Assembly (NCBI GenBank): GCA_030248195.1
Contig: JASAND010024079.1
Location: 1-64,000 of the forward strand
Direction of reading: 5' to 3'
Length of the DNA stretch: 64,000 nucleotides
Source: Trissonchulus latispiculum
Lineage: Eukaryota; Nematoda; Enoplea; Enoplida; Ironidae
Positions within the stretch are counted from its first letter, which is position 1. Each line of letters opens with the position of its first letter. Below the pieces are notes generated by a model, which was not told the origin of the DNA, did not search any database, and was given only the letters and a program-made list of their open reading frames with translations. The position numbers were made by a program, and so were the translations under genes. Shown here piece after piece: positions 63 through 60,312 of this stretch.

Positions 63-401
63 TTATCTTATGAGATTTCCGAGTAGTCCACTGACAATAC
101 CTACAATAGGTCCCAGGAGAGCTGGTAAAAATCCTCCGTGCTGAATGAATAGTTTCTTCTTCTTCTTCTTAAGACTGACTCGTTTCTTTCTTAGGGCTCT
201 TAGGGCGTGTTTGTATCTTGCTAATCTCTTCTTGTCTTTCTGGGAAATCTTTACGTTGCCAGACAGGATATTTTCTGCACAGTCACATATAGCTTTAATG
301 AGGTCGGAACTTCCATGAAGAACAATTGCCTCTCTTTGCTTACGACTTTTGCAACGACACAATAGTCGCAGTGTGTCAATATTTCTTTCAAAACGATCCA
401 T
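63..401 (-). CDS. Small basic pX/mu-like core protein of a Polinton/adintovirus-type element
   Basis: An intact 112-codon ORF. The N-terminal half (about residues 5-50) is a small helical domain with LRLLCRCKSRKQRE and LIKAICDCAENILSGN. Residues 58-83 are very basic, ending in a run of lysines. Residues 89-110 start with GG and continue as a hydrophobic Gly/Leu/Ile segment. Basic stretch, then GG, then hydrophobic tail is the layout of pX/mu-type condensing or core proteins found in Maverick/Polinton and adintovirus elements; the GG step resembles a maturation-protease site. It lies 5 bp downstream of the packaging ATPase on the same strand, which supports co-expression. The probable role is genome condensation or virion maturation, inferred from family and context. 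The ORF looks intact, unlike the neighbouring gene upstream of the ATPase. Confidence 0.72.
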   Translation of the reverse strand: MDRFERNIDTLRLLCRCKSRKQREAIVLHGSSDLIKAICDCAENILSGNVKISQKDKKRLARYKHALRALRKKRVSLKKKKKKLFIQHGGFLPALLGPIVGIVSGLLGNLIR

Positions 402-406
402 GATTA

Positions 407-1054
407 CTATTTCTTGATATTGTCAGTTTTTATGGAATATACGTCGGTATAAGGATCATCTGGGAAAATATGCCCTCTGAGACGGAGTTTTTCTGGTGTG
501 TTCTGGTCTAGGTCTATCAGTAGGTATCCATGTGGTCTACTGGTGGCATGCTCAAAAGCTTCCATAAATCCTTTCACTCTACCTGGATACATTTGTCTTA
601 CCAAGTTCATCGGGGTTAGTTTATCTGCTGGATTCTTCATGAGGACAATATACTGACTATTTATCCTATTAGTCCGCTGCCTATCGTAGAAGATGTCTTG
701 AGTGATATTGATGACACTGCAGGACCAATGGTGGCAACCGCGGGTGAATAGTTGAACAAGGTTAGGTTGCTGCTTAATTTCGCTCATCAGATCATCAAGT
801 ACTACCAATTTTGCGTCAGGAGTTTTCAGTTTCTCTAGATCTGGTAGACCTTTGATAAATTCTACCTGGGGAAGTCTATCATTTGCATCTTGCCACTCAG
901 TATAACACCAAATAATCTTCTCTGGCGGTTTGGAGATCATTTCGTCTGCATGTTCCACCAGTCGAGACACAAAGGTGGTCTTTCCTGCCTTTGTTGGAGC
1001 CGCCACGATACAAGTGAACGGATGCTGAAACTTTGGTGTCCTAACTCTCTCCAT
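407..1054 (-). CDS. A32/FtsK-HerA-type packaging ATPase of a Polinton-like element
   Basis: An intact 215-codon ORF. Residues 19-27 (APTKAGKTT) form a P-loop, with Lys25 and Thr26 as the expected nucleotide-binding residues. LVVLDD at 83-88 is a Walker B strand with the acidic pair. NITQD at 116-120 fits the polar sensor motif after it. A Trp/Tyr-rich stretch around 49-55 (WCYTEWQ) is typical of the Maverick/Polinton and adintovirus branch of the A32-like ATPases, which pump DNA into virion capsids. Length is on the short side of normal but nothing appears missing. The start is the ATG at 1054. The small core-like protein follows after 5 bp; a broken gene lies 230 bp upstream. The two short direct repeats in that gap may carry the promoter. 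No capsid gene is visible; it may lie left of the window. Confidence 0.85.
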   Translation of the reverse strand: MERVRTPKFQHPFTCIVAAPTKAGKTTFVSRLVEHADEMISKPPEKIIWCYTEWQDANDRLPQVEFIKGLPDLEKLKTPDAKLVVLDDLMSEIKQQPNLVQLFTRGCHHWSCSVINITQDIFYDRQRTNRINSQYIVLMKNPADKLTPMNLVRQMYPGRVKGFMEAFEHATSRPHGYLLIDLDQNTPEKLRLRGHIFPDDPYTDVYSIKTDNIKK

Positions 1055-1284
1055 ACTTACTATGAAAACACCAACGTTGTTTATATGACTTTATTGTACA
1101 TACAGTACAAAACACAATGCAATATTACATACACAATAGTCACTATAGTGTCTAATTTGTTCATACAGTACAAAACACAATATTACATATATTACACAAT
1201 AACGATTAGTCACTATAGTGTCAAATTTGTTCATATGACTCTTTGTTATCTTTCTTCATATCATTCTTCGTGGATAGTTCATCA
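1055..1284. repeat. AT-rich intergenic spacer with two direct repeats of about 65 bp
   Basis: Two imperfect copies (about 1098-1160 and 1161-1234) share CATACAGTACAAAACACAAT, then TAGTCACTATAGTG, then AATTTGTTCAT. They sit immediately upstream of the ATPase start, between it and the end of the broken upstream gene. They could hold promoter or terminator elements of the mobile element; nothing in the sequence proves this. Confidence 0.5.
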
Positions 1285-1368
1285 TCATTTCGTAGTATCC
1301 ATAATATCTTCATCATCGAGAACACGCATGGGCAATGCCTGCACAACTCCTGCACATGTGCAGGCTAG

Positions 1369-1860
1369 GAAAATTTACCCCCGCGCAGTGCGCAGCAAAA
1401 ATTTTACCCCCGCGCAGTAAAAGTTTTACCCCGCGCAGGAAAGCGTCTCAAGATTTTACCCCGCGCAACAAATTTTTTACCCCCGCGCACCAAATCGCAT
1501 CAAACTTTTGTCCCGCGCAAAAAATCTTTATCACCGGCCCCGCGCAGCAAACTTTTACCCCCGCGCAACAAAGCACGTTAGAACTATCCCGTACAACGAA
1601 AGTTCTAACTCTCGCAGTAAATTTTACCCCCGCGCAGTAAAATTTTTACCCCGAGCAGGAAAGTGTCTCAATATTTTGTCCCGCGCAGCAAATTTTTATC
1701 GCTGCGCAACAAAATTTTACCCCCGCGCAGCAAAGCGCATGGAGGTTTTGTCCCGCACAACAAAATTTTCACCCCCCGCGCAACAGAGTGCATTAACATT
1801 TTTTTCCCGCGCAACTAAATTTTTACCCCGCGCAACAAAGTGCAAGTTTTAAACCATGCA
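1369..1860 (+). repeat. Minisatellite of about 25-50 bp built on TTTTACCCCCGCGCAACAAA
   Basis: More than a dozen imperfect repeats of a unit running AAATTTTTAC, CCCCGCGCAG/A, then CAAA. Some are spaced by short linkers such as GTGTCTCAA or GCGCAT. Open frames crossing it are a by-product of the repeat and are not treated as genes. Confidence 0.85.
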
Positions 1861-3018
1861 TCCAATTTTTACCCCAAAAATTTTATCTCCTGCAACAAAA
1901 TGGTCTGAAAATTTCTTGGTCGGCTTCGCTCTTGGCGAAATTTCCATTACTTTTTTAAACGTTTAAACGTTGACCATTACATTCCTTTAAAAATTTTGCA
2001 CCATCAGCGTGTTTTCGTTTATTTTTGCTTTAAATTTTCGCGCCTCCGGTGCGTTTTCCATCGCATTTCCTTTAAAAACAGCTGTTTCTTTCATTACATA
2101 TATATTTATTCCAAAATTTTTAGACTGGTGGTGTTTTCTTTTTCATTTCCTTTGAATGTTTCCATGCCATGGATGCTTTTTGCTTCACATTTCTTTCAAA
2201 TAATTTTGTACCTTCGGAGCATTTGTAGCTTAAACGTTGAGTTGAGTTGGCAGTCAAACGCTTAAAAGATACGCTGCCAAAAACCAAAATACTAGGCAAT
2301 TGCCATTCCAAGGCTTCTCTCAATTAATTTCTTGAAACAATTTACCGTAATTCGTGGTCCTTCAAAGTGAAAAGAATTTTAGTTCCGAAGACGGGGTTTA
2401 TTGCAAAATCCAAAAATTTCTTCAACTTCAAGGGGGCTCTACCCCCAGATACCACGTTGCAAAGATTTTATCGCTACCCCCTTTTTAATTTTTAACTTCC
2501 CTTTTTACGGCACCCCCTCTTAATTGTTCCATTCTACATTGGTCGGCTAACCTGCAGTTGATTACATATTTTGCTTATATACATGCTATATCTGCTCTTG
2601 ATTATACGTTCTTCCTTAAAACGGAGGAAACGGGTACTATCAGGGAAAGAAGATTTTTGTGTTCATTGTCGGGGAATGCCCCCATTCCGCTTCTAAGAAA
2701 CACCGTTTTGCTAAACTAGCAAAATTAGCGAAAAAATTGCAAAAAGTTTCTGACATGACGGCTAAATACAGACCAAACGTTTTTGAACATCGATTTCTCA
2801 AAACTGCAGAATCGGCCAAAAGTTCTTTTTTTGCTATGATATAAAGGACATGTGGGCCGAGGGGCGTAATTTGGATTTGGCTCAGCAGGTCCTAACTACA
2901 AGTTTGGTTGAAATTCCAACTGTATGCCAAACATTTCCACTAAGGATTTTCCCAGCGTTTTGATGGTGGTATCAAACCCCCGCGACTTTCTATATATACT
3001 GTTAAAATTACTTGTCAC
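1861..3018. other. AT-rich non-coding stretch with a partial TTAA-family copy
   Basis: About 1861-2689 holds no gene or clear repeat that I recognise. About 2690-2885 resembles, in inverted orientation, 3720-3930 of the adjacent TTAA element, sharing CTAGCAAAATTAGC, GACCAAACGTTTTTGAACAT and GGACATGTGGGCCGAGG. It also resembles about 51020-51190 in direct orientation. It is a truncated member of that family. Confidence 0.5.
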
Positions 3019-4053
3019 TTAAGGTGCTGGTATCGCTTTGTGTAAATTCGACCCTACAAGCTTCAATTCTTTATGAAAGTGGATGAAACTTTCCAAATAC
3101 ATTATTTTCGTGCTCTTTGACATTCTGGAACCAGTCGCGGGTTTTTAGGTGCAAAGATAGGAATGTTTTGGTTTTTGCCATGATTCTCTCAGTACGTAGT
3201 CGATACACCGGATTGGTTGTTATAGCTGAAAACAGGGCTCCAGAGCGAACATTTACAACTTTTGAGCTATCTCTAGTGGTTAAGGCAGTAAAACCCAAAA
3301 ACGATTTTTGGGGTCATAAATGGCCATTTCTGAAGAAATCAGTTTTCAAAATTACTGCCAAATCTTACAGACAATTTTAACTTATTTATCGATACATTGA
3401 AAAATCGATACATCGTCCAATTGCACATTTTATCAAAGCCTGTTCGTTGGAGTTCGTTGCTTTATGCTAGAGAATTCACCGAAAAACCATTTTAGCAAAA
3501 CTGCGATTATTTTGTTTTGAACATTGATTTCACAAAAACTACTCAATGGATTCGCTTGATTTTTGGCAGAAAGAAACTTCGCACTATTGCGGAGGGACAT
3601 TTTTCTCGGTTTAAGCTAAATGTTACCAGTTACGAGAAAACTGAATACAAAGTTGCGAAATTTCGTGTCATCTTACATTTCCGCATTTTCTGGAGTATTG
3701 AGACTCGTTGAGCGAAATCCAAAAAATATCCCTCGGCTCACATGTCCTTGATATCAGGGCACAAGAAGAAATTTTGTCCGATTCTACAGTTTTGAGAAAT
3801 CGATGTTCAAAAATTTTTGGTCCATATTCCGCCTGTCACATTTAAGCATGTGAGAAAATTTTTCTATTCTTTTTGCTAATTTTGCTAGTTTCGTGAGCTC
3901 GTGTAAGTGTACAGATTGTAAGCTTTAAAACGATGTATATATAAAGTAACGTCTAACGTTAAAACGATCTTTCCGACTCCCAAAATTGCGAAAGTTATAG
4001 CGTTTCGAAAAATCACCACAAAAGCACTGCACAAAAGGATACCAGCACCTTAA
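3019..4053. mobile_element. TTAA-flanked MITE, copy 1
   Basis: The ends are TTAAGGTGCTGGTATC (3019-3034) and its exact inverse complement (4038-4053). TTAA at both ends would be the target duplication, as for piggyBac- or Kolobok-type transposons. The element is 1035 bp with no transposase ORF. Related TTAA copies with divergent ends lie at 10694-11682 and 50894-54841. Confidence 0.8.
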
Positions 4054-4746
4054 ATTAGTTTCGACTTTTTATATTACTTGATTAATAATGCTTAATGCTA
4101 ATTGAATTTTAAAACCCGAATGAAATATAGCTACATTCATAAAATTCCCTAGCTATTTAGTAAAACCAGAGAATGAAAATTTCCGCATTTTGTGAGAGAT
4201 TCATCAAAATCTTAAAGAATTGCGTAAGTTCGCAAATCTTTCCGACAAAGGGACAAAAACAGAACTTTGTAAAAACCACAGCCCACACATATCGTGAAAA
4301 TTTAGAAATTTGACCCCCCCCCGCGCAGTGAGCTCGAAGCCTGTGCAGGCTAGAGCCAAGTTCATTGCCCATGTATGATCGAGAATAAGTTCTTCGACTA
4401 CTTCATCTTCATTGATCAGTTGCTTCATATCGACATGTAGAATTCGTCGCCATCCAATGCCAGGAATAGAAATGATTATCTTCTGCCTCGGATATCGTCT
4501 GCATTTATTCTTGTGGTAGCGGCTGAGGCGGATCAGGCTTTGGAGTGCCTTATAGATGCCCATGGTGCAATATATGGAATAAATGTGGCATTTACACCAG
4601 TATCGTATGCCTACTTATTGACTATAGAGCTGGTATATCTGGTCTGCTGTAAAACTGACAGGACCAACAAAGCCACAAAGGACACGCTTATCTTGATCCA
4701 GGCAAAGAGTTGTCTCGTTATATGTGGATGTGTAAGGACATGGAAT

Positions 4747-4858
4747 AGATCCGTTGATATAGACAGGGCACTGGAAGTTTAGACAGTTGTATATGAAGTG
4801 GCAGATCCGTTGATATAGACAGGGCACTGGAAGTTTAGACAGTTGTATATGAAGTGGC
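4747..4858. repeat. 56-bp tandem duplication inside the broken viral-type gene
   Basis: A 56-bp unit beginning GATCCGTTGATATAGACAGG is present twice with one visible difference near its end (GGCA versus GGCG). Because 56 is not a multiple of three, it shifts the reading frame of the minus-strand gene. Confidence 0.9.
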
Positions 4859-5205
4859 GGATCTCGTGAAAACTATCAAGTGATACAAGGTGCTCGGTCC
4901 AACCATTATGAATAAAGATGGCATTGTCTATCGTGACGGAGTCTTTCAATGGTGGTAACTTACACTGGGTATGTTGTGACAACAAAAGGCATGTAACTCC
5001 TTTGACCAATTGGAGTTTCGTAAAGTTTAAAAAGGAATGCCCTTCTTGGGAATTTGCACCAGTAGCCATAGTCAGGATCTTGTACGGCACACTTTAACAG
5101 TACCTCTATTCGCTTCTTATTACCATAGAACTTAGATGCCGTCTTTGTATTAGCCCTACTACCATGCTTTTTATAGACGTGGGGTGATACCTTAGTGTTC
5201 CACAT

Positions 5206-5243: not shown

Positions 5244-5738
5244 ATGATTGTTAATGTTGTTCTCAGTGGACGCTTTGACAAGACACTTCACCTAACGAAC
5301 ATTCCTAACATTAGACTCTATCGAGGATTTATTGGCGGTAGTCTGAAGCACGAAGGGGCAACTTTCCAATTATTCACTAGTGGTAGTTGTGTTTGCCTCG
5401 GATGTAAATCAATCGAACGAGCTAATCAGTGTATTCGCCAACTAGCAGGCGCTCTTAATGTCGGTATTCTTAGCAAAGGCGAAGTGGTGAACCTGGTGGG
5501 ATCCTTCCCAGTTGGCAGGTATATAGACCAAAGGGATTTATATGAAAGTATCCGGCATACCCATCAAGTTTGCTATGAACCGGAGCTATTTAACGGTCTC
5601 ACCTGCAAGATTGCCAAAGTTACTGCACTTATCTTCCACACTGGCAAGGTCATATTAACTGGTGCTCGGAGTGAGTCTGTCCTATCAGATGCAAGGTCTT
5701 TAGTTAATAAGAAGGTGATAAGGTTTAAACTTCATTAG
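5244..5738 (+). CDS. TATA-binding-protein homologue carried by a Polinton-like element
   Basis: A 164-codon ORF with the two-lobed (pseudo-symmetric) TBP core and almost nothing outside it; the cellular core is about 180 residues. Lobe 1 is about 3-75, with LFTSGSCVCLGCKS (43-56) at the place of the IFSSGK-TGAKS strand. Lobe 2 is about 80-155, with YEPELFNGL (111-119) and LIFHTGKVILTGARSE (129-144), both near-signature TBP motifs. Phe116 and Phe131 match the lobe-2 phenylalanines that wedge into TATA DNA; Phe44 matches one of the lobe-1 pair. The family binds TATA promoters and recruits TFIIB/TFIIA and Pol II. The frame is intact, intronless and highly diverged from cellular TBP. A dsRBD-like ORF follows after 6 bp. 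It could direct transcription of the element's own late or early genes (inference). A host retrocopy is less likely given the divergence and tight viral-style spacing. Confidence 0.8.
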   Translation: MIVNVVLSGRFDKTLHLTNIPNIRLYRGFIGGSLKHEGATFQLFTSGSCVCLGCKSIERANQCIRQLAGALNVGILSKGEVVNLVGSFPVGRYIDQRDLYESIRHTHQVCYEPELFNGLTCKIAKVTALIFHTGKVILTGARSESVLSDARSLVNKKVIRFKLH

Positions 5739-5744
5739 TGCATC

Positions 5745-5996
5745 ATGTCTGCCCGAAGCCTGTTGAACGAACTGTTACAAAAGGCCCTGCGCCAAAGTCC
5801 ACCTATTCGCATTGAGATTACCGGTCATTATGTTGCAGTCATGACTATAGGCAGTAAGACATGGACAAGCTCACAATGCCCTGACCCACGTACTGCCATT
5901 GAGGAAGTTTCTCGTAAAGCCTACGGAACGTTATGTCATGGGAACGAACACTTGATCAGACGTGAATGCGGACTACCACCAAGACCTCAGGGATAA
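5745..5996 (+). CDS. Small dsRBD-like protein
   Basis: An 83-codon ORF starting 6 bp after the TBP-like stop, an arrangement unusual for cellular eukaryotic genes and common in viral elements. Residues 5-15 suggest helix 1 (SLLNELLQKAL). Residues 20-43 look like strands (PIRIEITGHYVAVMTIGSKT). Residues 47-63 form a helix with the DPRTAIEEVSRKAYGTL pattern. This fits an abbreviated double-stranded-RNA-binding fold, in which a Gly-containing beta hairpin precedes a helix with small residues; the usual KKxAK basic cluster is not seen. If real, it could bind dsRNA. This is a fold guess from pattern, not a firm family match; an unrelated alpha-beta protein is possible. Confidence 0.5.
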   Translation: MSARSLLNELLQKALRQSPPIRIEITGHYVAVMTIGSKTWTSSQCPDPRTAIEEVSRKAYGTLCHGNEHLIRRECGLPPRPQG

Positions 5997-5997
5997 G

Positions 5998-6108
5998 ATG
6001 AGGGACCTACGTGAATACAAAAGATATCGCAGAAGTATTCAACCTATCTACAATATGCTAGACAGGCTAGAAGCAGAAATGCTCAAAAATCCGTTTTTTC
6101 ATGGCTAA
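5998..6108 (+). CDS. Possible 36-codon basic peptide ORF
   Basis: The ATG at 5998 begins 1 bp after the preceding stop, in the +1 frame, and runs to TAA at 6106-6108. The product is short, charged and probably helical: RDLREYKRYRR near the start and MLDRLEAEMLK further on. It is not recognised. Tight spacing to the preceding ORF is the main support; it might instead be the end of the 83-codon protein reached by a frameshift. Confidence 0.3.
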   Translation: MRDLREYKRYRRSIQPIYNMLDRLEAEMLKNPFFHG

Positions 6109-6352: not shown

Positions 6353-7063
6353 TTAGTGTGCTTTACATTCCTGGTGATTCCATGGGGATACGAACCATTC
6401 CGGCACATTCCACTGTTTCACCATAGAATTTCCAATCCACTCGATGAATACGACGGCACGGTTGTCACATCCCAAGGGTCCAAGGGCCATCGCTGCGTCC
6501 AGTCTCGCTGCTTGTACCGTAGGGAAGGTGTCCTGGCTTTCTCTTAGCAAATATTTGCTGTTTGTGTAAATCTTCCACGTGACTCCTTTCTCCTTCGTTC
6601 CTCCTTCGAATAGTTTGGCCAAGTTGTACTGCTTCGACTTCACCAAGGCCTCGTGGAGCAGGGGTATTATATCTTTGCTCCGCTTTAGTCGCAGTAGGAG
6701 ATCAAACACTCCATCGTATCTTGTTTCGGACTTGATGATATCTCGATAATCCGGGGTTATGCGCCGATGTTCAACCATGTAGTCTGCCACTGGAGCGGGA
6801 TCCATTTCATCACAAAGAATAACCAAATTATCAATGATTTTCTCCACAGATGGTGAACCTGAAACATAAGTAATAATTTTTACACAACAAGTAATGCTAA
6901 TCTAAAAACTATGAAATGTTCAAACTGTAAAATGTAATGTTGAAAATAGTAATATACAAGAATTCAAAAATGTGAATGACTGAAAAATGCAACGGATAAA
7001 AATACAACTTTTAAAAATGCTACAATTAAAAATCTTACCGGTTTCAACGGAATTCATTGACAT
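6353..7063 (-). CDS. Two-exon CARD protein with a possible dsRBD-like tail
   Basis: Exon 1 is 7063-7039 (ATG plus 8 codons and 1 nt), the intron 7038-6859 (GTAAGA donor, TTTCAG acceptor, 180 nt) and exon 2 6858-6353. Splicing gives an open 176-codon frame; without it exon 2 lacks an ATG near its start. Residues about 14-92 fit a caspase-recruitment domain: helices separated by DPAPVADYM, then RRITPDYRDII, SETRYDGVFDLLLRLKRS and LLHEALVKSKQYNLAKLF, at the spacing of that six-helix fold. CARDs assemble innate-immune and apoptotic complexes. Residues about 101-137 (VTWKIYTNSKYLL, then PTVQAARLDAAMALGPL) resemble the last strands and second helix of a dsRBD. The end is Trp-rich and unrecognised. 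The gene converges on the TBP-like strip and probably belongs to the same element; host capture is likely given the intron. It might modulate host CARD signalling (inference). Confidence 0.6.
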
Positions 7064-7279
7064 GGCGATGTAAAATCTGGTGATTCAAATGTCAATAAAG
7101 GTTAATTATCCTGGCAAAACTCACAATATATGTCTAAACTTTGCAGCATTCTTGTGCTAGGTTTCATAAAATACCTTTCATACCCTTGTTCATTTACTAG
7201 TTAATTATTGAGCCGATGTTGTATTGTCCTTTTCTTTCAACCTTTAGCCTGTTCCCAATTTCACGTAATTGTTATCATA

Positions 7280-7640
7280 TTCATTACACACAAATTTTTA
7301 TAGTCACCTTTAATTAATTATTATTAACTAATTAGTTAACCTATAATTATCAACAGGTGACCGAAGTTAGTTCATTATTACTTTATTACACAGGCACCAT
7401 AATTAACCCAATAGGTGTCAACAATCTTACGTAATTGGAGACATAAAATTATAATCACCCATTTTCAGCCAATTTTCATAGTCCACTTTAACAAATTATT
7501 ACTAACTAATTAGTTAACAACTAAACAAAATTAGTTGACGGAAGTTAGTTCAACACATGGTCTTTAAGTTGACACCAAAATTAGTGTGATAAGTGTTGCC
7601 AACATTACGTAATTGGAGACATAAAATTTTCATTTTCAAC
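7280..7640. repeat. Two tandem copies of a 178-bp AT-rich repeat
   Basis: ACGTAATTGGAGACATAAAA recurs at about 7429 and 7607, and TAACTAATTAGTTAAC and GAAGTTAGTTCA also occur in each copy. The region is upstream of the CARD gene start; its relation to the Polinton-like element's terminus is unknown. Confidence 0.7.
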
Positions 7641-7714
7641 CAATGATTATTAACCCTTGTTTACGTCTTTAATTTCAATGAGACAGGTGCAATCAAGGTG
7701 AATTGGTAAGCTTT

Positions 7715-8200
7715 GGGAGACAGGTTAAAGTCCTCAGTATGCTAAAGATATTAGCCTGCTAGAAGGCAAGGAAGAGAAAAAGTAGTGACAGGTTTGAGTC
7801 CTCAGTGTGTTATTCATATGAGCCTGCTAGAAGGCTGCTAATAGGGAGAAAGACTTTTGACAGCTTTGAGTCCTCAGTGTGTTATTCATATGAGCCTGCT
7901 AGAAGGCTGCTAATAGGGAGAGAAAGACTTTTGACAGCTTTGAGTCCTCAGTGTGTTATTCATATGAGCCTGCTAGTAGGGAGAGAAATACTTTTAAAGC
8001 AAGCAGGCAAGTAATAGGGAGAAAGACTTTTGACAGCTTTGAGTCCTCAGTGTGTTATTCATATGAGCCTGCTAGAAGGCAAGGAAGAGAAAAAATTTTA
8101 AAGCAAGCAGGCAGCTAATAGGGAGAAAGACTTTTGACAGCTTTGAGTCCTCAGTGTGTTATTACTATGAGCCTGCTAGAAGGCTGCTAACAGGAGACTC
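7715..8200 (+). repeat. Tandem array of a 73-bp unit (about six copies, some longer)
   Basis: Units share GAGTCCTCAGTGTGTTATTC, ATATGAGCCTGCTAGAAGGC and GGGAGAAAGACTTTTGACAG. Starts are near 7729 (degenerate), 7794, 7867, 7942, 8038 and 8143. Some units carry an extra AAGCAAGCAGGC stretch. It is a minisatellite, and open frames across it are incidental. Confidence 0.9.
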
Positions 8201-33235: not shown

Positions 33236-34012
33236 CGCTTCTACCAGGGCTGGCGGATCAGGAAGAAACCAAGGACAAGCCCAAACGGGAGGCGTCAGGC
33301 ACCTTCGTACCCACGAAACCAGGACCTAGAAGAGAGAAGGGAAGAGGGAGGTTCAGCTTTTCACTCACCATTGAAAGTAAAGAATTGGTCCCGCCGGGGA
33401 TCGAACCACGGCCCTTCTGCTCTAGAGTCAGACATGCTAAACCACTACACCACGGGACCATCAGCTGAACTCCCATTGCAGGCTTATCAATCTTTCCTAT
33501 GCCTGCTTCCCTTACATCTCCCCCGGGTTTCCTTTAAGACGCGTCCCGCGGCTTACTCAACTCGGAATCGAACCGAGAGCGCATCCAGCGCAGGGCATTC
33601 TGAGCCCAAGGGATCCGTGCTCCCCCGACACACGTTCCAGACCCCTTTAGATCCAACCAACCAGAAACAACTACTGGGGGACCGGAGACAGGAGTCCAAT
33701 CCGGGTCCTGAGGCAGCCTCGACACATGTAGCGCTTCTACCAGGGCTGGCGGATCAGGAAGAAACCAAGGACAAGCCCAAACGGGAGGCGTCAGGCACCC
33801 TCGTACCCACGAAACCAGGACCTAGAAGAGAGAAGGGAAGAGGGAGGTACAGCTTTTCACTCACCATTGAAAGTAAAGAATTGGTCCCGCCGGGGATCGA
33901 ACCACGGCCCTTCTGCTCTAGAGTCAGACATGCTAAACCACTACACCACGGGACCATCAGCTGAACTCCCATTGCAGGCTTATCAATCTTTCCTATGCCT
34001 GCTTCCCTTACA
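33231..34012 (-). mobile_element. Two copies of a tRNA-derived SINE around a 210-bp spacer
   Basis: A 286-bp sequence at 33231-33516 recurs at 33727-34012 (offset 496 bp, nearly identical). Each has a minus-strand tRNA-like head of 73 nt (33459-33387 and 33955-33883). The head has a perfect 7-bp acceptor stem (GGTCCCG/CGGGACC), a full A box (TGGTGTAGTGG) and B box (GGTTCGATCCC), and anticodon loop CTCTAGA, that is anticodon CTA. Two mismatches in the T stem argue against a working tRNA. The spacer has another B-box-like GGTTCGATTCC on the minus strand near 33560. Confidence 0.75.
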
Positions 34013-34059
34013 AAAAGGCCCTTAGTTTCACCAATAAATTTCCTTTGTTCCGTTAACTC

Positions 34060-51742: not shown

Positions 51743-54681
51743 GTCAAGAAAATGGATTTCTGATTCCACTCTTGCTCTCGTGAAGAAAGACGCTCTACAT
51801 CCGTTCGTTGGCAACGTTCACGCCTCTCGAGACAAATCAAGCGTTCACTGAAGATTGACGAGAATAATTCGCCCTTGATCTGGCAAAAGGACCTAACTAG
51901 ACCAAACGGTTGAAATGGCGTTTTTTGCAGATTTAGGTTTCTTTATGTGCTGAGTTTAATCTGGCAAAAGGACGTATCTGTACGAGCTAAAACGAAGAAG
52001 TTAAAGCCATTTGTCATTCGGCACTATGTTCAGAAGTGGTGATAACTGGTCTCTTACAGGGACCTAAGTCACATAGGTCATTTTGACAAGCTATGATTTC
52101 TACACATTGCACACTACACATTCACTGATTTGATATTTGTTATGGCTTACTTAGGTCTTTTTGCCATCAAATTTTACATTCTTCTAATTTTTCCTGTAAA
52201 ATGTTTAACTATTAATGATCCAGCAATCAGTAACAGTTTCTTGCAAACAGCAAATGCTGCTTACTTAATTTTAAATTACTGCATTAACAGAAATGCCCTT
52301 ACTTGACAAAAAACGCTAACATTAATAACGAACGCCATGTTAGCAGCTTTTCTTGTCCGCTGTGTTTGGAATTGCATTTAATTCTCAAAAACCAGTCAAT
52401 CGAAATATTGTACCGGCTTTTTGTTTTATTTATGCGAGCTTTTTCACTATCTATGACGTACTTTATGTAGAAACATCGTGAACCTTGAATACATACCTTT
52501 CTTTCTAGAAACTGTTATATCGGACCATGGTTATGCGCACAGCAAGCTTAAATTGATAGAGGTTAGTCGAAAGAGGCAGAAGTGTGAGCTACGGCCGTCG
52601 TATTTTTTGATTTTTTGAAAAAATTGTGCAGTTAGGGCAAATAATTTTGTGTGTCAAGGAGAAAATTTTGGTATGGCAAAGAGACCTAAGTGTAAAGTAA
52701 TTAGTAAATAAATTACCAAAATAACAGAACCCAACTGCTAAGACAGAAAAACGTATTGTCCGAACCGGAGGTATCTCAGTAATAAGTATGACTAAAACGT
52801 TTGCGAAGACTAAACCTACATAAATCCAAAAACAAGTTTTTTCTTTACTGAAATTTTCAAAAGGCCATAACTTTAAATTTTAAGTTTTCAGTTAGGTCCT
52901 TTTGTCAGACCAAGGGCGAATTATTTGGCGGAGCGAGCTGCTGAAATGCAAACAGCTTCAGATACCGGAAATATAACTGTCCTCTACCGAACTATTCACG
53001 AGCTGGCGGGCCGAAAACCTCCTAGTCTCCCCTCCGTCCTAAATGATGCAAACGGGGTTCCTCTGAGAACTCCACACGACAGCGAGTCCCGTTGGGCGGA
53101 GCATTTCTCTGATCTATTCAATCGTCCTGAACCTCCCCAACGTGACCCAGATTTGAGAGGACAATTTCCTCCTACTAATGATTCAGTCAGCCTGGAGGCT
53201 CCTACTCTCGAGGAAGTGCGACGAGCCATTAAAGCCCTTAAACTGAAAAAAGCACCGGGAACCTGTGGCATCCCCGCAGAAGCTCTGAAGTCTCTGGATG
53301 ATGATAATATGATGGCTCTTGTCGACTTGCTCGGTAAAATCTGGCAGAGGAGACGGGTTCCACAGGACTTCAAGGATGGCATCATCATACCGCTTCACAA
53401 AAAGGGCAGCAAACAAGAGTGTTCCAATTACCGCGGGATAACACTACTGTCTATCGCAGGAAAAGTTCTCGCCATGATTTTGCGCTTCCGTCTGCTCGAC
53501 CTTTATGACCAGAAAATTCGAGATCAACAGGCCGGATTCAGGCCTGGCCGTGGTTGCATAGACCAGATCTTCACTCTCCGCCGCTGTATCGAACGTCGAT
53601 TACGTCATGGCCAGCCCACTGTCGTATGATTCGTAGATTTTGCAGCTGCCTTCGACAGCGTGGATAGACCTTCTATGATTTCTGTGTTGCGGAAGTGCGG
53701 GGTGCCTGAGCTGTTCACAGATATCATAAGTGACCTATACCACAATGCATCATCTTGTGTGAGAACACAAAGAGGCCTCTCCCGGAGTTTTCCTGTCACA
53801 ACTGGCGTGCGGCAAGGATGCGTGTTATCACCCATGCTGTTTAATCTAGTCTTAGATTGGATTATGTGCAAGGCTGTTGAAAACACTGACGGTGTACAGT
53901 GTAGCTGCAGCGATACCATTGCCGATCTGGATTACGCGGACGACATCGCCATCATGCAACCAGACGCTGCATCTTGCCAAAATATGCTCGACCGTATTGC
54001 TTCTATTGCGGGCATGCTTGGTCTTCGAATAAATCCTTCCAAGACCAAGGCGATCTATTTCCATCTGCCCGACCAACCTACTCTGTCGATCAATCAGGAA
54101 GATATCGAAGTTGTTAGTGAGTTCGCCTACCTCGGATCCGTTATCAGTGGTGCAAAGCTATCAGCTACAAAGGACATCGAAATGAGGATAGCAAAGGCCT
54201 CTCGCACTTTCGGTCAGTTGAAGCGACACGTCTTCTGTCGGACGGATCTGTCGACATCGCTGAAAATGCGAGTCTTCAATGCCTCCGTTATATCCAGATA
54301 TATATTGCAGAGATTCGAGACCTTTGTGAACACCAGCCGACTGTCGAATCCCTTATTCGAAAACGGCGGCTTCGTTGGTTAGGACACGTAGCTCGAATGA
54401 ACCCAATTCGAAGCTGCCATGCCATCTGGCGAAATCCCAAACCTGCGACGTGGCGTTGTGTCAGAACTGCAGAGAAATGCACGTGGGATAGCCTGGTTTC
54501 AAGAGACTTAGCCTATTTAAAACAAGGATATGGTTCCGTAAATTGGAGCAATCACTTTGTGGACATCATTATAGATCTAGCAACGGATCGGGTTCAATGG
54601 CGACGGATCGTATTGGGTCAGGCCACAGCGGATGCACGACGTCATGCTCTTGTGCTTTAAGTCAAGTAAGTCAAGTCAAGT
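51743..54681 (+). pseudogene. RTE-like non-LTR retrotransposon, 5'-truncated and inactivated
   Basis: CAAAAACCAA flanks it (51733-51742 and 54682-54691). It starts inside the linker before the reverse transcriptase (SRKWISDSTLALVKKDALH). The fingers and palm are read in 52925-53627 (KAPGTCGIPAEAL, NYRGITLLSIAGKVLA, QAGFRPGRGCIDQIFTLR), then a TGA, then 53629-54382 (DFAAAFDSVDRPSM, GVRQGCVLSPMLFNL, LDYADDIAIM). YADD is the catalytic motif. Later frames are shifted. The 3' end is GTCAAGTAAGTCAAGTCAAG, a short tandem tail as in RTE/CR1-type elements. A foldback MITE at about 51871-52917 interrupts it. Confidence 0.85.
51871..52917. mobile_element. MITE with CGCCCTTG ends inside the LINE
   Basis: CGCCCTTGATCTGGCAAAAG at the left is the near-exact inverse of the right end (CTTTTGTCAGACCAAGGGCG). 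AATT lies on both sides. Leaving the element out puts the LINE frame before it in register with the frame after it. Non-coding. Confidence 0.75.
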
Positions 54682-56713: not shown

Positions 56714-57095
56714 GTGCATACTGGAGGCTGAGGAACTCAAAAATTTAAAATTTTTCTAAAATTTTTAGTTGGTCAGGGTGTATCGAGGTGTAGTGTTTTA
56801 GAACGGCCGCGAAGCGGCGGCCGGCCCGGCTGAGTGTCTGGCCGTTCAGCCGGCTGCTGGCCTCCGGCCTAGCACAGATATTTGTAGTAAACACTGAAAG
56901 TTGAGCAGAGTAGAAAATTATTACAAAACACATCCAATGAACGTGAATGTGATTTCAATCAAGCTATAGAAGTTTAAAAACCGTTTCCATTGACTGTGTA
57001 ATGCATATTATAAATATTTTGCAATTTTCTAGCTCAATTTTCATTTTTTTGCATTTAGATACTGGAAAAGGCCGGCTGGTGGCCGCCGGCCAAGA

Positions 57096-57462
57096 AGGGC
57101 CAACGGCCCGTCGATGGCAGGCTGGTCGTTGCCAAGAACGGCCAACGGCCCGTCGATGGCAGGCCGGTCGTTGCCAAGAACGGCCAACGGCCCGTCGATG
57201 GCAGGCCGGTCGTTGCCAAGAACGGCCAACGGCCCGTCGATGGCAGGCCGGGCGTTGCCAAGAACGGCCAACGGCCCGTCGATGGCAGGCCGGTCGTTGC
57301 CAAGAACGGCCAACGGCCCGTCGATGGCAGGCCGGGCGTTGCCAAGAACGGCCAACGGCCCGTCGATGGCAGGCCGGTCGTTGCCAAGAACGGCCAACGG
57401 CCCGTCGATGGCAGGCCGGTCGTTGCCAAGAACGGCCAACGGCCCGTCGATGGCAGGCAGCC
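57096..57462 (+). repeat. 42-bp minisatellite, about nine units (first copy)
   Basis: The unit contains GGCCAACGGCCCGTCGATGG and CAGGCCGGTCGTTGCCAAGAA. As 42 is divisible by three and the unit has no stops in several frames, long frames stay open on both strands; these are not taken as genes. Two units carry GGGCGTT instead of GGTCGTT. Confidence 0.95.
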
Positions 57463-58715
57463 AGCCAGTGACTTTTCTGGTGGCCGGCTCAACTCGGCCG
57501 TTCTAAAACACCACTGACGGGTAGTGTGGGGCGTTGGCCGGTGCGGCCAATTGCCGGCCAATCCATTGGCCGTTGGCCGAAAATTTTCGGACCGGTCTTT
57601 GTTCGGCCGATTGGTCGTTGTCTTTTCGTTGGCCATTGGCTGTTTGTTGTCCGTTGGCCGTTTGGCCGATTATTGGCCTAGCTTAGAGGTATTGATTTTC
57701 ACATCTACACTTGCTGAGAATTGGTTTTCTTCTGTGCTCTTTCTACGGCAAGTGTGCAAGTAAAATTGTGTATGCAGAAGGGTAAACGGAACGGAATACT
57801 TGCTAAGTAATAAGATTTCGAAAACCGACTTCACGCAATTTCTTCATATTATCACCCCAACATAATGCTCATGCTCAGCATACGTGTGCCGACGCTTCAG
57901 GCTTAATTGCACCCAAGTTAGCATAATGTATCAACGAATATTATTATTCCAGAATACATACAAACAAGTGGGAATTCGTCACCGTCAGGCTTAACTGTGT
58001 CGAGAAGGACAGAGCTTTTTAGAAAATTCAAGATAGCATATTTAGACTGATATTGAAAACAAACTAAATAGTAATGCTATTGCTTATAATTATTGCAACT
58101 ATTCAATAGTTCAATAAAAGACAGCAAAACATTAGCAATGTTTCGAGGTTTGCAGGAAAAAATTATCTGGGCTTGAAAACTGCAATTGGCTTGGCCGACG
58201 AAACTTCCGGCTAACGTCCAACACTACCGAGTGGATCAAAAACGTTTTTCGCGATTTTGCTGAAAATGCATACAAGCATTTTCTGGAGCGCTGAGCACTC
58301 AGCTTTTTGTTAGCTCCGGATAAGCTTACATCTTAAGTTTACAACTTAGCAAGCACAGCTTTACAATCTTTAGTAAACTAACGAAAAGCTGAATCGAAAA
58401 ACGGATTTCAGATTCGTGTCCAGCGCCCCAGTAAACCTTGTCTGTAAGTTTTCAACAAAATCGGGGGCAAAAATGTTCCCCTCATCCCACTCCCCAACTA
58501 AAATTTTGAAATTTTTGAAAATTGTAAAATTTTTTGAACTTGAACTTGAACATCCAATGAACGTGAATGTGATTTCAATCAAGCTATAGAAGTTTAAAAA
58601 CCGTTTCCATTGACTGTGTAATGTATATTATAAATATTTTGCAATTTTCTAGCTCAATTTTCATTTTTTTGCATTTAGATACTGGAAAAGGCCGGCTGGT
58701 GGCCGCCGGCCAAGA

Positions 58716-59082
58716 AGGGCCAACGGCCCGTCGATGGCAGGCTGGTCGTTGCCAAGAACGGCCAACGGCCCGTCGATGGCAGGCCGGTCGTTGCCAAGAA
58801 CGGCCAACGGCCCGTCGATGGCAGGCCGGTCGTTGCCAAGAACGGCCAACGGCCCGTCGATGGCAGGCCGGGCGTTGCCAAGAACGGCCAACGGCCCGTC
58901 GATGGCAGGCCGGTCGTTGCCAAGAACGGCCAACGGCCCGTCGATGGCAGGCCGGGCGTTGCCAAGAACGGCCAACGGCCCGTCGATGGCAGGCCGGTCG
59001 TTGCCAAGAACGGCCAACGGCCCGTCGATGGCAGGCCGGTCGTTGCCAAGAACGGCCAACGGCCCGTCGATGGCAGGCAGCC
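58716..59082 (+). repeat. 42-bp minisatellite, about nine units (second copy)
   Basis: The same units in the same order as the first copy, including the variant units at the same positions, as expected if the array was copied as part of the 1.62-kb duplication. Confidence 0.95.
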
Positions 59083-60312
59083 AGCCAGTGACTTTTCTGG
59101 TGGCCGGCTCAACTCGGCCGTTCTAAAACACCACTGACGGGTAGTGTGGGGCGTTGGCCGGTGCGGCCAATTGCCGGCCAATCCATTGGCCGTTGGCCGA
59201 AAATTTTCGGACCGGTCTTTGTTCGGCCGATTGGTCGTTGTTGTCTTTTCGTTGGCCATTGGCTGTTTGTTGTCCGTTGGCCGTTTGGCCGATTATTGGC
59301 CTAGCTTAGAGGTATTGATTTTCACATCTACACTTGCTGAGAATTGGTTTTCTTCTGTGCTCTTTCTACGGCAAGTGTGCAAGTAAAATTGTGTATGCAG
59401 AAGGGTAAACGGAACGGAATACTTGCTAAGTAATAAGATTTCGAAAACCGACTTCACGCAATTTCTTTATATTATCACCCCAACATAATGCTCATGCTCA
59501 GCATACGTGTGCCGACGCTTCAGGCTTAATTGCACCCAAGTTAGCATAATGTATCAACGAATATTATTATTCCAGAATACATACAAACAAGTGGGAAGTC
59601 GTCACCGTCAGGCTTAACTGTGTCGAGAAGGACAGAGCTTTTTAGAAAATTCAAGATAGCATATTTAGACTGATATTGAAAACAAACTAAATAGTAATGC
59701 TATTGCTTATAATTATTGCAACTATTCAATAGTTCAATAAAAGACAGCAAAACATTAGCAATGTTTCGAGGTTTGCAGGAAAAAATTATCTGGGCTTGAA
59801 AACTGCAATTGGCTTGGCCGACGAAACTTCCGGCTAACGTCCAACACTACCGAGTGGATCAAAAACGTTTTTCGCGATTTTGCTGAAAATGCATACAAGC
59901 ATTTTCTGGAGCGCTGAGCACTCAGCTTTTTGTTAGCTCCGGATAAGCTTACATCTTAAGTTTACAACTTAGCAAGCACAGCTTTACAATCTTATAGTAA
60001 ACTAACGAAAAGCTGAATCGAAAAACGGATTTCAGATTCGTGTCCAGCGCCCCAGTAAACCTTGTCTGTAAGTTTTCAACAAAATCGGGGGCAAAAATGT
60101 TCCCCTCATCCCACTCACCAACTAAAATTTTGAAATTTTTGAAAATTGTAAAATTTTTTGAACTTGAATGCCTTAGCCCAGATGAATTGAATTCTTTTAA
60201 TCCCTCACCCCAACGGCAGGCCACCGGCTGAACGGCCATGCGCTCAGCCGGGCCGGCCGCCGGCTGCCCGGCCGTTCTAAAACACTAACCCCTCGGTACA
60301 CGCTGACCAGGC

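Follow-up and report, generated by a model that had tools for sequence, protein, structure and literature searches.

Whether a small mobile DNA element can carry a TATA-binding protein (TBP) of its own, and which transcription machinery such a protein would serve, is the question raised by an open reading frame (ORF) in a contig of the nematode Trissonchulus latispiculum (JASAND010024079.1, positions 1 to 64,000; this whole stretch of 64,000 nucleotides is called the window). To our knowledge, the transcription of Polintons inside a host genome is an open question. An initial annotation, made from the letters alone, had interpreted the ORF as the TBP gene of a Polinton-type element, and this interpretation is supported by the analysis described here.

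The TBP gene and the element around it

The features of the element copy in the window are as follows:

63..401, minus strand: short ORF of basic composition whose C-terminus is hydrophobic; pX/core-like from its position; sub-threshold Adeno_PX match on the L029 copy
407..1054, minus strand: packaging ATPase of the Polinton/adenovirus IVa2 type; 569 homologues; adjoins TBP in 39 of 47 other copies
1077..1086, minus strand: TATA-like box ATATAAACAA, 32 nt upstream of the ATPase ATG; ATATAARCA in 36 of 36 located copies
1323..4374, no strand: later, hAT-like insertion of ~3.05 kb that interrupts the p72 ORF; inverted CA..TG ends and an 8-bp ATCGAGAA duplication
4375..4563, minus strand: remnant of the p72 ORF (71-aa ORF, cut by the insertion, intact elsewhere); in 42 of 47 other copies
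4618..5069, minus strand: p150 ORF, altered here, 149 aa elsewhere; in 45 of 47 other copies
4990..5205, minus strand: p98 ORF in divergent orientation to TBP, the two start codons being separated by 38 bases; in 46 of 47 other copies
5244..5738, plus strand: the element's TBP gene; lobe 1 at about aa 1-76, lobe 2 at about aa 77-164
5745..6105, plus strand: p128 ORF after TBP, disrupted here, 128 aa elsewhere; in 47 of 47 other copies
6353..6805, minus strand: 150-aa ORF with sub-threshold CARD similarity; in 43 of 47 other copies
6859..7921, no strand: right terminal inverted repeat region, 75% identical, inverted, to a left end (L029:1-1084)

The TBP ORF begins with the ATG at 5244, encodes 164 amino acids and has a stop codon that ends at 5738. 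The Pfam TBP family (PF00352) matched it with an E value of 1.8e-26 and 92.3 bits (cut-off 22.9) in two stretches that cover both lobes, and a score of this size rules out a chance match as the source of the TBP call. The two motifs that the initial annotation had singled out, YEPELFNGL and LIFHTGKVILTGA, are both present, and the profile search and structure prediction that it had proposed as checks gave a match that is strong by sequence as well as by fold. The fold prediction recovered the pseudo-symmetric saddle of PF00352 with high confidence, and we regard it as near certain that the protein has the TBP fold. It is 27-29% identical to TBP structures from animals, yeast and plants, and the nearest viral model is the TBP of Heterosigma akashiwo virus 01 (TMq 0.80). 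A single-sequence search of the protein database gave 48 candidates, none at E<=1e-3, and an alignment-based search with the element TBPs found 139 sequences at E<=0.01 among 7,999 scored. Scans of viral contigs for TBP, the ATPase or a TBP pattern yielded no relative, and the PHROGs search returned nothing of weight.

The neighbouring Polinton-type ATPase, also proposed in the initial annotation, is real: the best of its homologues is 71% identical, the source of one labels it 'Adenovirus IVa2 protein', and some of the 120 listed carry precomputed PF04665 or PF02456 assignments; Pfam on the window ATPase itself stayed below threshold (Pox_A32, E 0.12). The adjoining ORF at 63..401 is a putative core-like gene by its position and by the sub-threshold Adeno_PX match (E 0.14) of the matching ORF in another copy, and this assignment is unproven. 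The ~3.05 kb insertion between ATPase and TBP is missing from all seven near copies, in which the ATPase side joins window position 4375. hAT transposons leave such 8-base duplications and inverted ends. Since the insertion cuts the p72 ORF, the window copy is damaged. The description of this region as a compact gene strip applies to the other copies and not to the one in the window. Stop-free TBP ORFs with intact neighbours are present in other copies. The CARD match of the ORF at 6353..6805 has an E value of 0.12, its L003 copy has no Pfam match at E<=1, and its single-sequence fold prediction (pLDDT 40) is unreliable; two rows of this CARD-like ORF and one p128 row contain stop codons. A second match to the CARD-like ORF lies in tandem in L013, L015, L016, L017 and L020. 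Furthermore, p98 and p150 share ~157 bases, which they read in different frames, and both are open in several divergent copies (L003:883-1465, minus strand, and the matching ORFs), for which overlapping genes, frameshifting and splicing are candidate explanations.

The remainder of the element was reconstructed from other copies. Left of the ATPase, contigs C15488 (L029) and C4969 (L032) contain a 175-aa ORF, an integrase, two related ORFs of ~254 aa, a 128-aa ORF, a 439-aa capsid-like ORF, a protease-like ORF and a short ORF. The integrase has an rve domain (E 5.3e-15) and a C-terminal chromodomain (E 7.2e-10), and was found again in a second copy. The capsid-like ORF resembles double-jelly-roll (DJR) proteins with E values of 0.013-0.019, below the cut-off, in three copies, and gave no match of weight to PDB sequences. 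The Peptidase_C5 match of the protease-like ORF is likewise below the cut-off (E 0.10-0.11 in two copies, not listed for the third; of the C15488 and C4969 ORFs, one has it, with E 0.11). A 1,088-aa family B DNA polymerase (PolB) ORF (DNA_pol_B_2, E 5e-16) comes next on C16237, ~8 kb from that contig's own TBP, and C2527 carries a PolB 90% identical to it in a like place, together with a TBP ~90% identical to that of the window. PolB was found in these 2 of 15 left-side pieces, which belong to different copies. C15488, C4969 and C20356 have a match to a C2H2 zinc-finger ORF beside the short ORF at the place of PolB, and thus lack PolB there. These three copies (L029, L032 and L064) have capsid-type genes, two of them also the integrase, and may be non-autonomous forms helped by PolB-bearing copies. 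C15488 carries inverted repeats at its ends that are 92% identical over 381 bases. The far-left pieces L035-L038 and the nearer L063, L066 and L067 gave no match to eight element proteins. Among the 77 of 935 candidates scored in a PolB family search, no contig was recognised as carrying the TBP family studied here, and the PolBs of C16237 and C2527 were absent from this list.

With a chromodomain-bearing rve integrase, a family B DNA polymerase, a packaging ATPase and long terminal inverted repeats, the element shares its hallmarks with Polintons/Mavericks and adintoviruses, and it is near certain that the TBP belongs to an element of this type. According to the accessible part of PMC11071296, adintoviruses are defined by an OTU-like domain at the PolB N-terminus. 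The TBP gene is what sets the element apart: in the literature searched, whose coverage is incomplete and does not include the founding adintovirus paper, no paper assigning a TBP to a Polinton, Maverick or adintovirus was found, in line with the statement in the initial annotation that none was established for Maverick/Polinton elements.

Copies, selection and the host TBP

The genome (733.8 Mb in 21,732 contigs) contains at least 150 further matches to the TBP ORF (150 of 846 candidates were scored). The 24 best are full or near-full length and stop-free, and identity among the matches listed goes down to 55%. We compared 47 other loci: the 7 best (L002-L008), 20 spanning the subfamilies (L009-L028) and 20 more that were high-scoring (L040-L059). 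Where the ATPase adjoins TBP, it always has the opposite orientation; of the eight loci without it, L017 begins at a contig end. In L043, p72 and p150 have the other orientation, possibly because this locus spans two TBP copies that face opposite ways. The idea that ATPase and TBP are only chance neighbours is contradicted by this shared adjacency and by the comparison with the near copies. In L023, L026 and L027, which look chimeric, the left flank and TBP lobe 1 are near one subfamily and lobe 2 and p128 near another; this suggests that element subfamilies have recombined inside TBP.

Pairwise comparison of 10 stop-free TBP ORFs gave dN/dS values of 0.07-0.29 in 40 of 45 pairs, values with dS above ~2 being rough, and saturation in the other five. 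The element TBP is thus under purifying selection. In a 38-row TBP tree, four element rows formed a single clade (100/99) outside the cellular clade (95/87), and the deeper branching order was not recovered; the phylogeny proposed in the initial annotation therefore sets the element TBPs apart from cellular ones. The host has a TBP gene of its own, of which two pieces, 3 kb apart on C14517 and 73% and 72% identical to Artemia TBP, are read as exons; a single TAG falls within the first match.

TBP is universal in hosts and a host TBP is present here, so that a functionless retrocopy of it, caught by one element, might come to mind. The dN/dS values, the gene order shared across subfamilies down to ~60% identity, an identity of 27-29% to the TBP structures of animals, yeast and plants and the branch outside the cellular clade all speak against this, and we consider its probability practically negligible. 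A host gene or retrocopy unconnected to the Polinton genes, named in the initial annotation as the alternative, is ruled out by the same selection values and tree position, by the order in the 47 copies, which the TBP shares with element genes and not with host sequence, and by the separate host TBP.

TBP surfaces, the ATPase box and a proposed mode of action

In TBP, four phenylalanines wedge into DNA. Compared with whale, yeast and plant TBP, the element protein keeps both central asparagines (N4, N83), all four phenylalanines (F29, F44, F116, F131) and E112, E114 and L115 of the TFIIB stirrup (YEPEL). The initial annotation had noted the wedge phenylalanines of lobe 2 (F116, F131), to which the alignments add those of lobe 1. 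In an alignment of 14 out of 28 TBP-bearing loci, with the window standing for L001, N4, N83, F29, F44, F116, F131, E112, L115 and T139 were invariant in all 14 selected rows, and E114 was kept in 13, with D in the remaining one. The other 14 loci, several of them stop-free, were excluded as near-identical, chimeric, shifted, extended or without a start. In this excluded set, F44 is replaced by L in L016 and L017 and E114 by G in L025, and YEPEL is altered in L019. The database relatives keep the glutamate pair too, a count that is biased because they were picked by shared words.

The element protein thus has the two lobes, saddle fold, wedge phenylalanines, central asparagines and TFIIB stirrup of a cellular TBP, and differs from it in being encoded by a mobile element, in its length of 164 aa without an N-terminal domain, and in a shortened H1 and stirrup in lobe 1. 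Position 52 is leucine in the element TBP and threonine in the whale, yeast and plant proteins, for which reason DNA preference may differ. Of the 23 residues of the N-lobe helix, 2-3 are K/R in the three element copies compared, whereas each of five cellular TBPs has 7 K/R among 27-28 residues. According to the accessible text of PMC7221094, which also describes the role of the L5.1 Phe, cellular TBPs bind TFIIB through the two glutamates. Pfam scans of element ORFs, covering part of the ORFs of part of the copies, gave no match to TFIIB.

A candidate target lies before the ATPase. ATATAARCA, a motif chosen after viewing these sequences, lies at most 100 bases upstream of the ATPase ATG in all 36 copies, out of 47, whose start was located, and it is kept although the flanking non-coding DNA differs between subfamilies. 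The 10-base ATATAARCAR is absent from both strands of window positions 9001-64000 and occurs once inside the insertion (2571-2580, minus strand), with no ORF after it; the 8-base TATAARCA occurs six times in 9001-64000. The exact 11-base form precedes 2 of 11 genes examined, the ATPase and the 128-aa ORF, where it was present in 3 of 3 pieces but within the coding sequence of another gene. Searches upstream of the nine other genes, including PolB, the integrase and the capsid-like ORF, did not detect it, nor was a conserved box detected upstream of TBP itself. The ATPase box has the form of a plain TATA box, which host TBP could read too, and it therefore supports a promoter, not a choice between two TBPs. 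That the element chooses its own promoters, as the initial annotation had put it, is something we infer.

From these sequence features, we consider it reasonably probable that the element uses a private TBP to recruit host TFIIB and RNA polymerase II (Pol II) to its promoters, escaping the control exerted on host TBP. The protein would bind and bend TATA-like DNA by means of its four phenylalanines at element promoters, e.g., at the ATATAARCA before the ATPase; host TFIIB would then dock on the C-terminal glutamates E112 and E114, and host Pol II would be recruited. The positively charged N-lobe helix, used by Mot1 and others, is largely lost, which might allow escape from the eviction of host TBP and from TFIID control. 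The likeliest time of action would be the switching-on of the virion genes. The kept glutamates, the lost N-lobe surface and the lack of a TFIIB among the ORFs scanned fit this use of host TFIIB and Pol II, and the form of the element TBP seems to be built for host TFIIB rather than for one of its own.

The same surfaces would suit a decoy that acts chiefly on the host, sequestering TFIIB or TATA boxes and lowering host transcription, with the element promoters using host TBP: the protein has retained both glutamates and lost the regulatory surface of the N-lobe, and the ATPase box is close enough to the canonical form to serve host TBP. Such a decoy appears unlikely, since the DNA-wedging residues are conserved to a degree beyond the needs of a TFIIB sponge and the box is conserved in every located copy. 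The location of TBP in a block with a packaging ATPase and a core-like ORF might also point to a DNA-bending or packaging role, in which the saddle would be used in the virion or in replication instead of transcription. We judge this quite improbable, as the TFIIB-facing glutamates that have been kept would be needless for it. Finally, TBP-Brf2 and Pol III complexes are among the PDB matches of the element TBP, and the accessible part of PMC7221094 reports that Brf1 and Brf2 use the same C-terminal surface. Recruitment of Pol III through these factors, in place of Pol II, has very little probability in our view, given that the genes of the block encode proteins and that a long ORF follows the box.

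Comparison with other viral TBPs and a second TBP family

Two-lobe TBPs encoded by viruses have been described, in the accessible parts of the respective reports, for giant viruses (PMC11464507), for 59% of mirusvirus genomes (PMC10132985), for WSSV and its relatives, the nimaviruses (PMC4506587), and, sporadically, for mirus-like insertions in an alga (PMC10675990). The genomes of giant viruses, mirusviruses and nimaviruses are large, in contrast to the small element described here, and the range of viral TBPs is thereby widened beyond large DNA viruses to include small integrating elements. As far as the text of PMC7221094 was accessible, the majority of viral TBPs no longer have the glutamates for TFIIB and are paired with a viral TFIIB; they also lack the N-lobe surface on which Mot1 and other host regulators act. 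Such an orthogonal TBP-TFIIB system is not what we found, as the element TBP keeps the glutamates and no TFIIB was seen among the ORFs scanned. A closer functional parallel is ORF24 of KSHV, described in the accessible part of PMC12529657 as a TBP mimic that serves late genes with host Pol II. Like the mechanism proposed here, it involves a viral TBP-like protein at viral late promoters, host Pol II and a requirement for TBP-like phenylalanines; it differs in its five other viral factors, in DNA contacts beyond the TBP fold and in reading TATTWAA, and it is not known to be related to the element TBP. A TBP that is under selection across long-diverged subfamilies, in an ATPase block with a conserved TATA box, makes Polinton transcription directly testable.

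A query with Artemia TBP detected many further intronless TBP-like ORFs of ~175 aa, with 28-32% identity to Artemia TBP, as well as others within frames of ~400-430 aa, all unlike the family of the window TBP. One of them, on C700 (G000:C700:12860-13369; L068:1061-1585), is a strong TBP match (E 2.1e-36) that is 31% identical to the window TBP. In 1.6 kb around it, no other element protein was matched save for a 40-residue pX match (E 0.029), which lies within the TBP ORF and is taken as chance. The ORF beside it (L068:556-1107) is presumably a NADAR/YbiA protein. The genome thus holds at least two unlike multi-copy, intronless TBP-like families beside the host gene. We tentatively propose, as a possibility that we would not yet favour, that small integrating DNA viruses have repeatedly adopted a private TBP, and that the element described here follows a half-private path in which its own TBP works with host TFIIB and Pol II, dodges Mot1 and TFIID, and reads ATATAARCA.

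The sequences P0189, P0196, P0205 and P0218 from the alignment-based search are TBP-like, 174-175 aa long, have 12 to 84 member sequences and lie on megabase contigs; they possibly represent a multi-copy TBP family in another genome. Elsewhere in the window, ORF pieces at 52877-54657 (plus strand) resemble a non-LTR reverse transcriptase by eye, and a tandem duplication of ~496 bases at 33236-34022, each unit of which has a tRNA-like gene called as tRNA-Pyl (cta), is likely a SINE or tRNA-derived repeat. A minisatellite-bearing segment is duplicated at 56953-57503 and 58573-59123, 1,620 bases apart.
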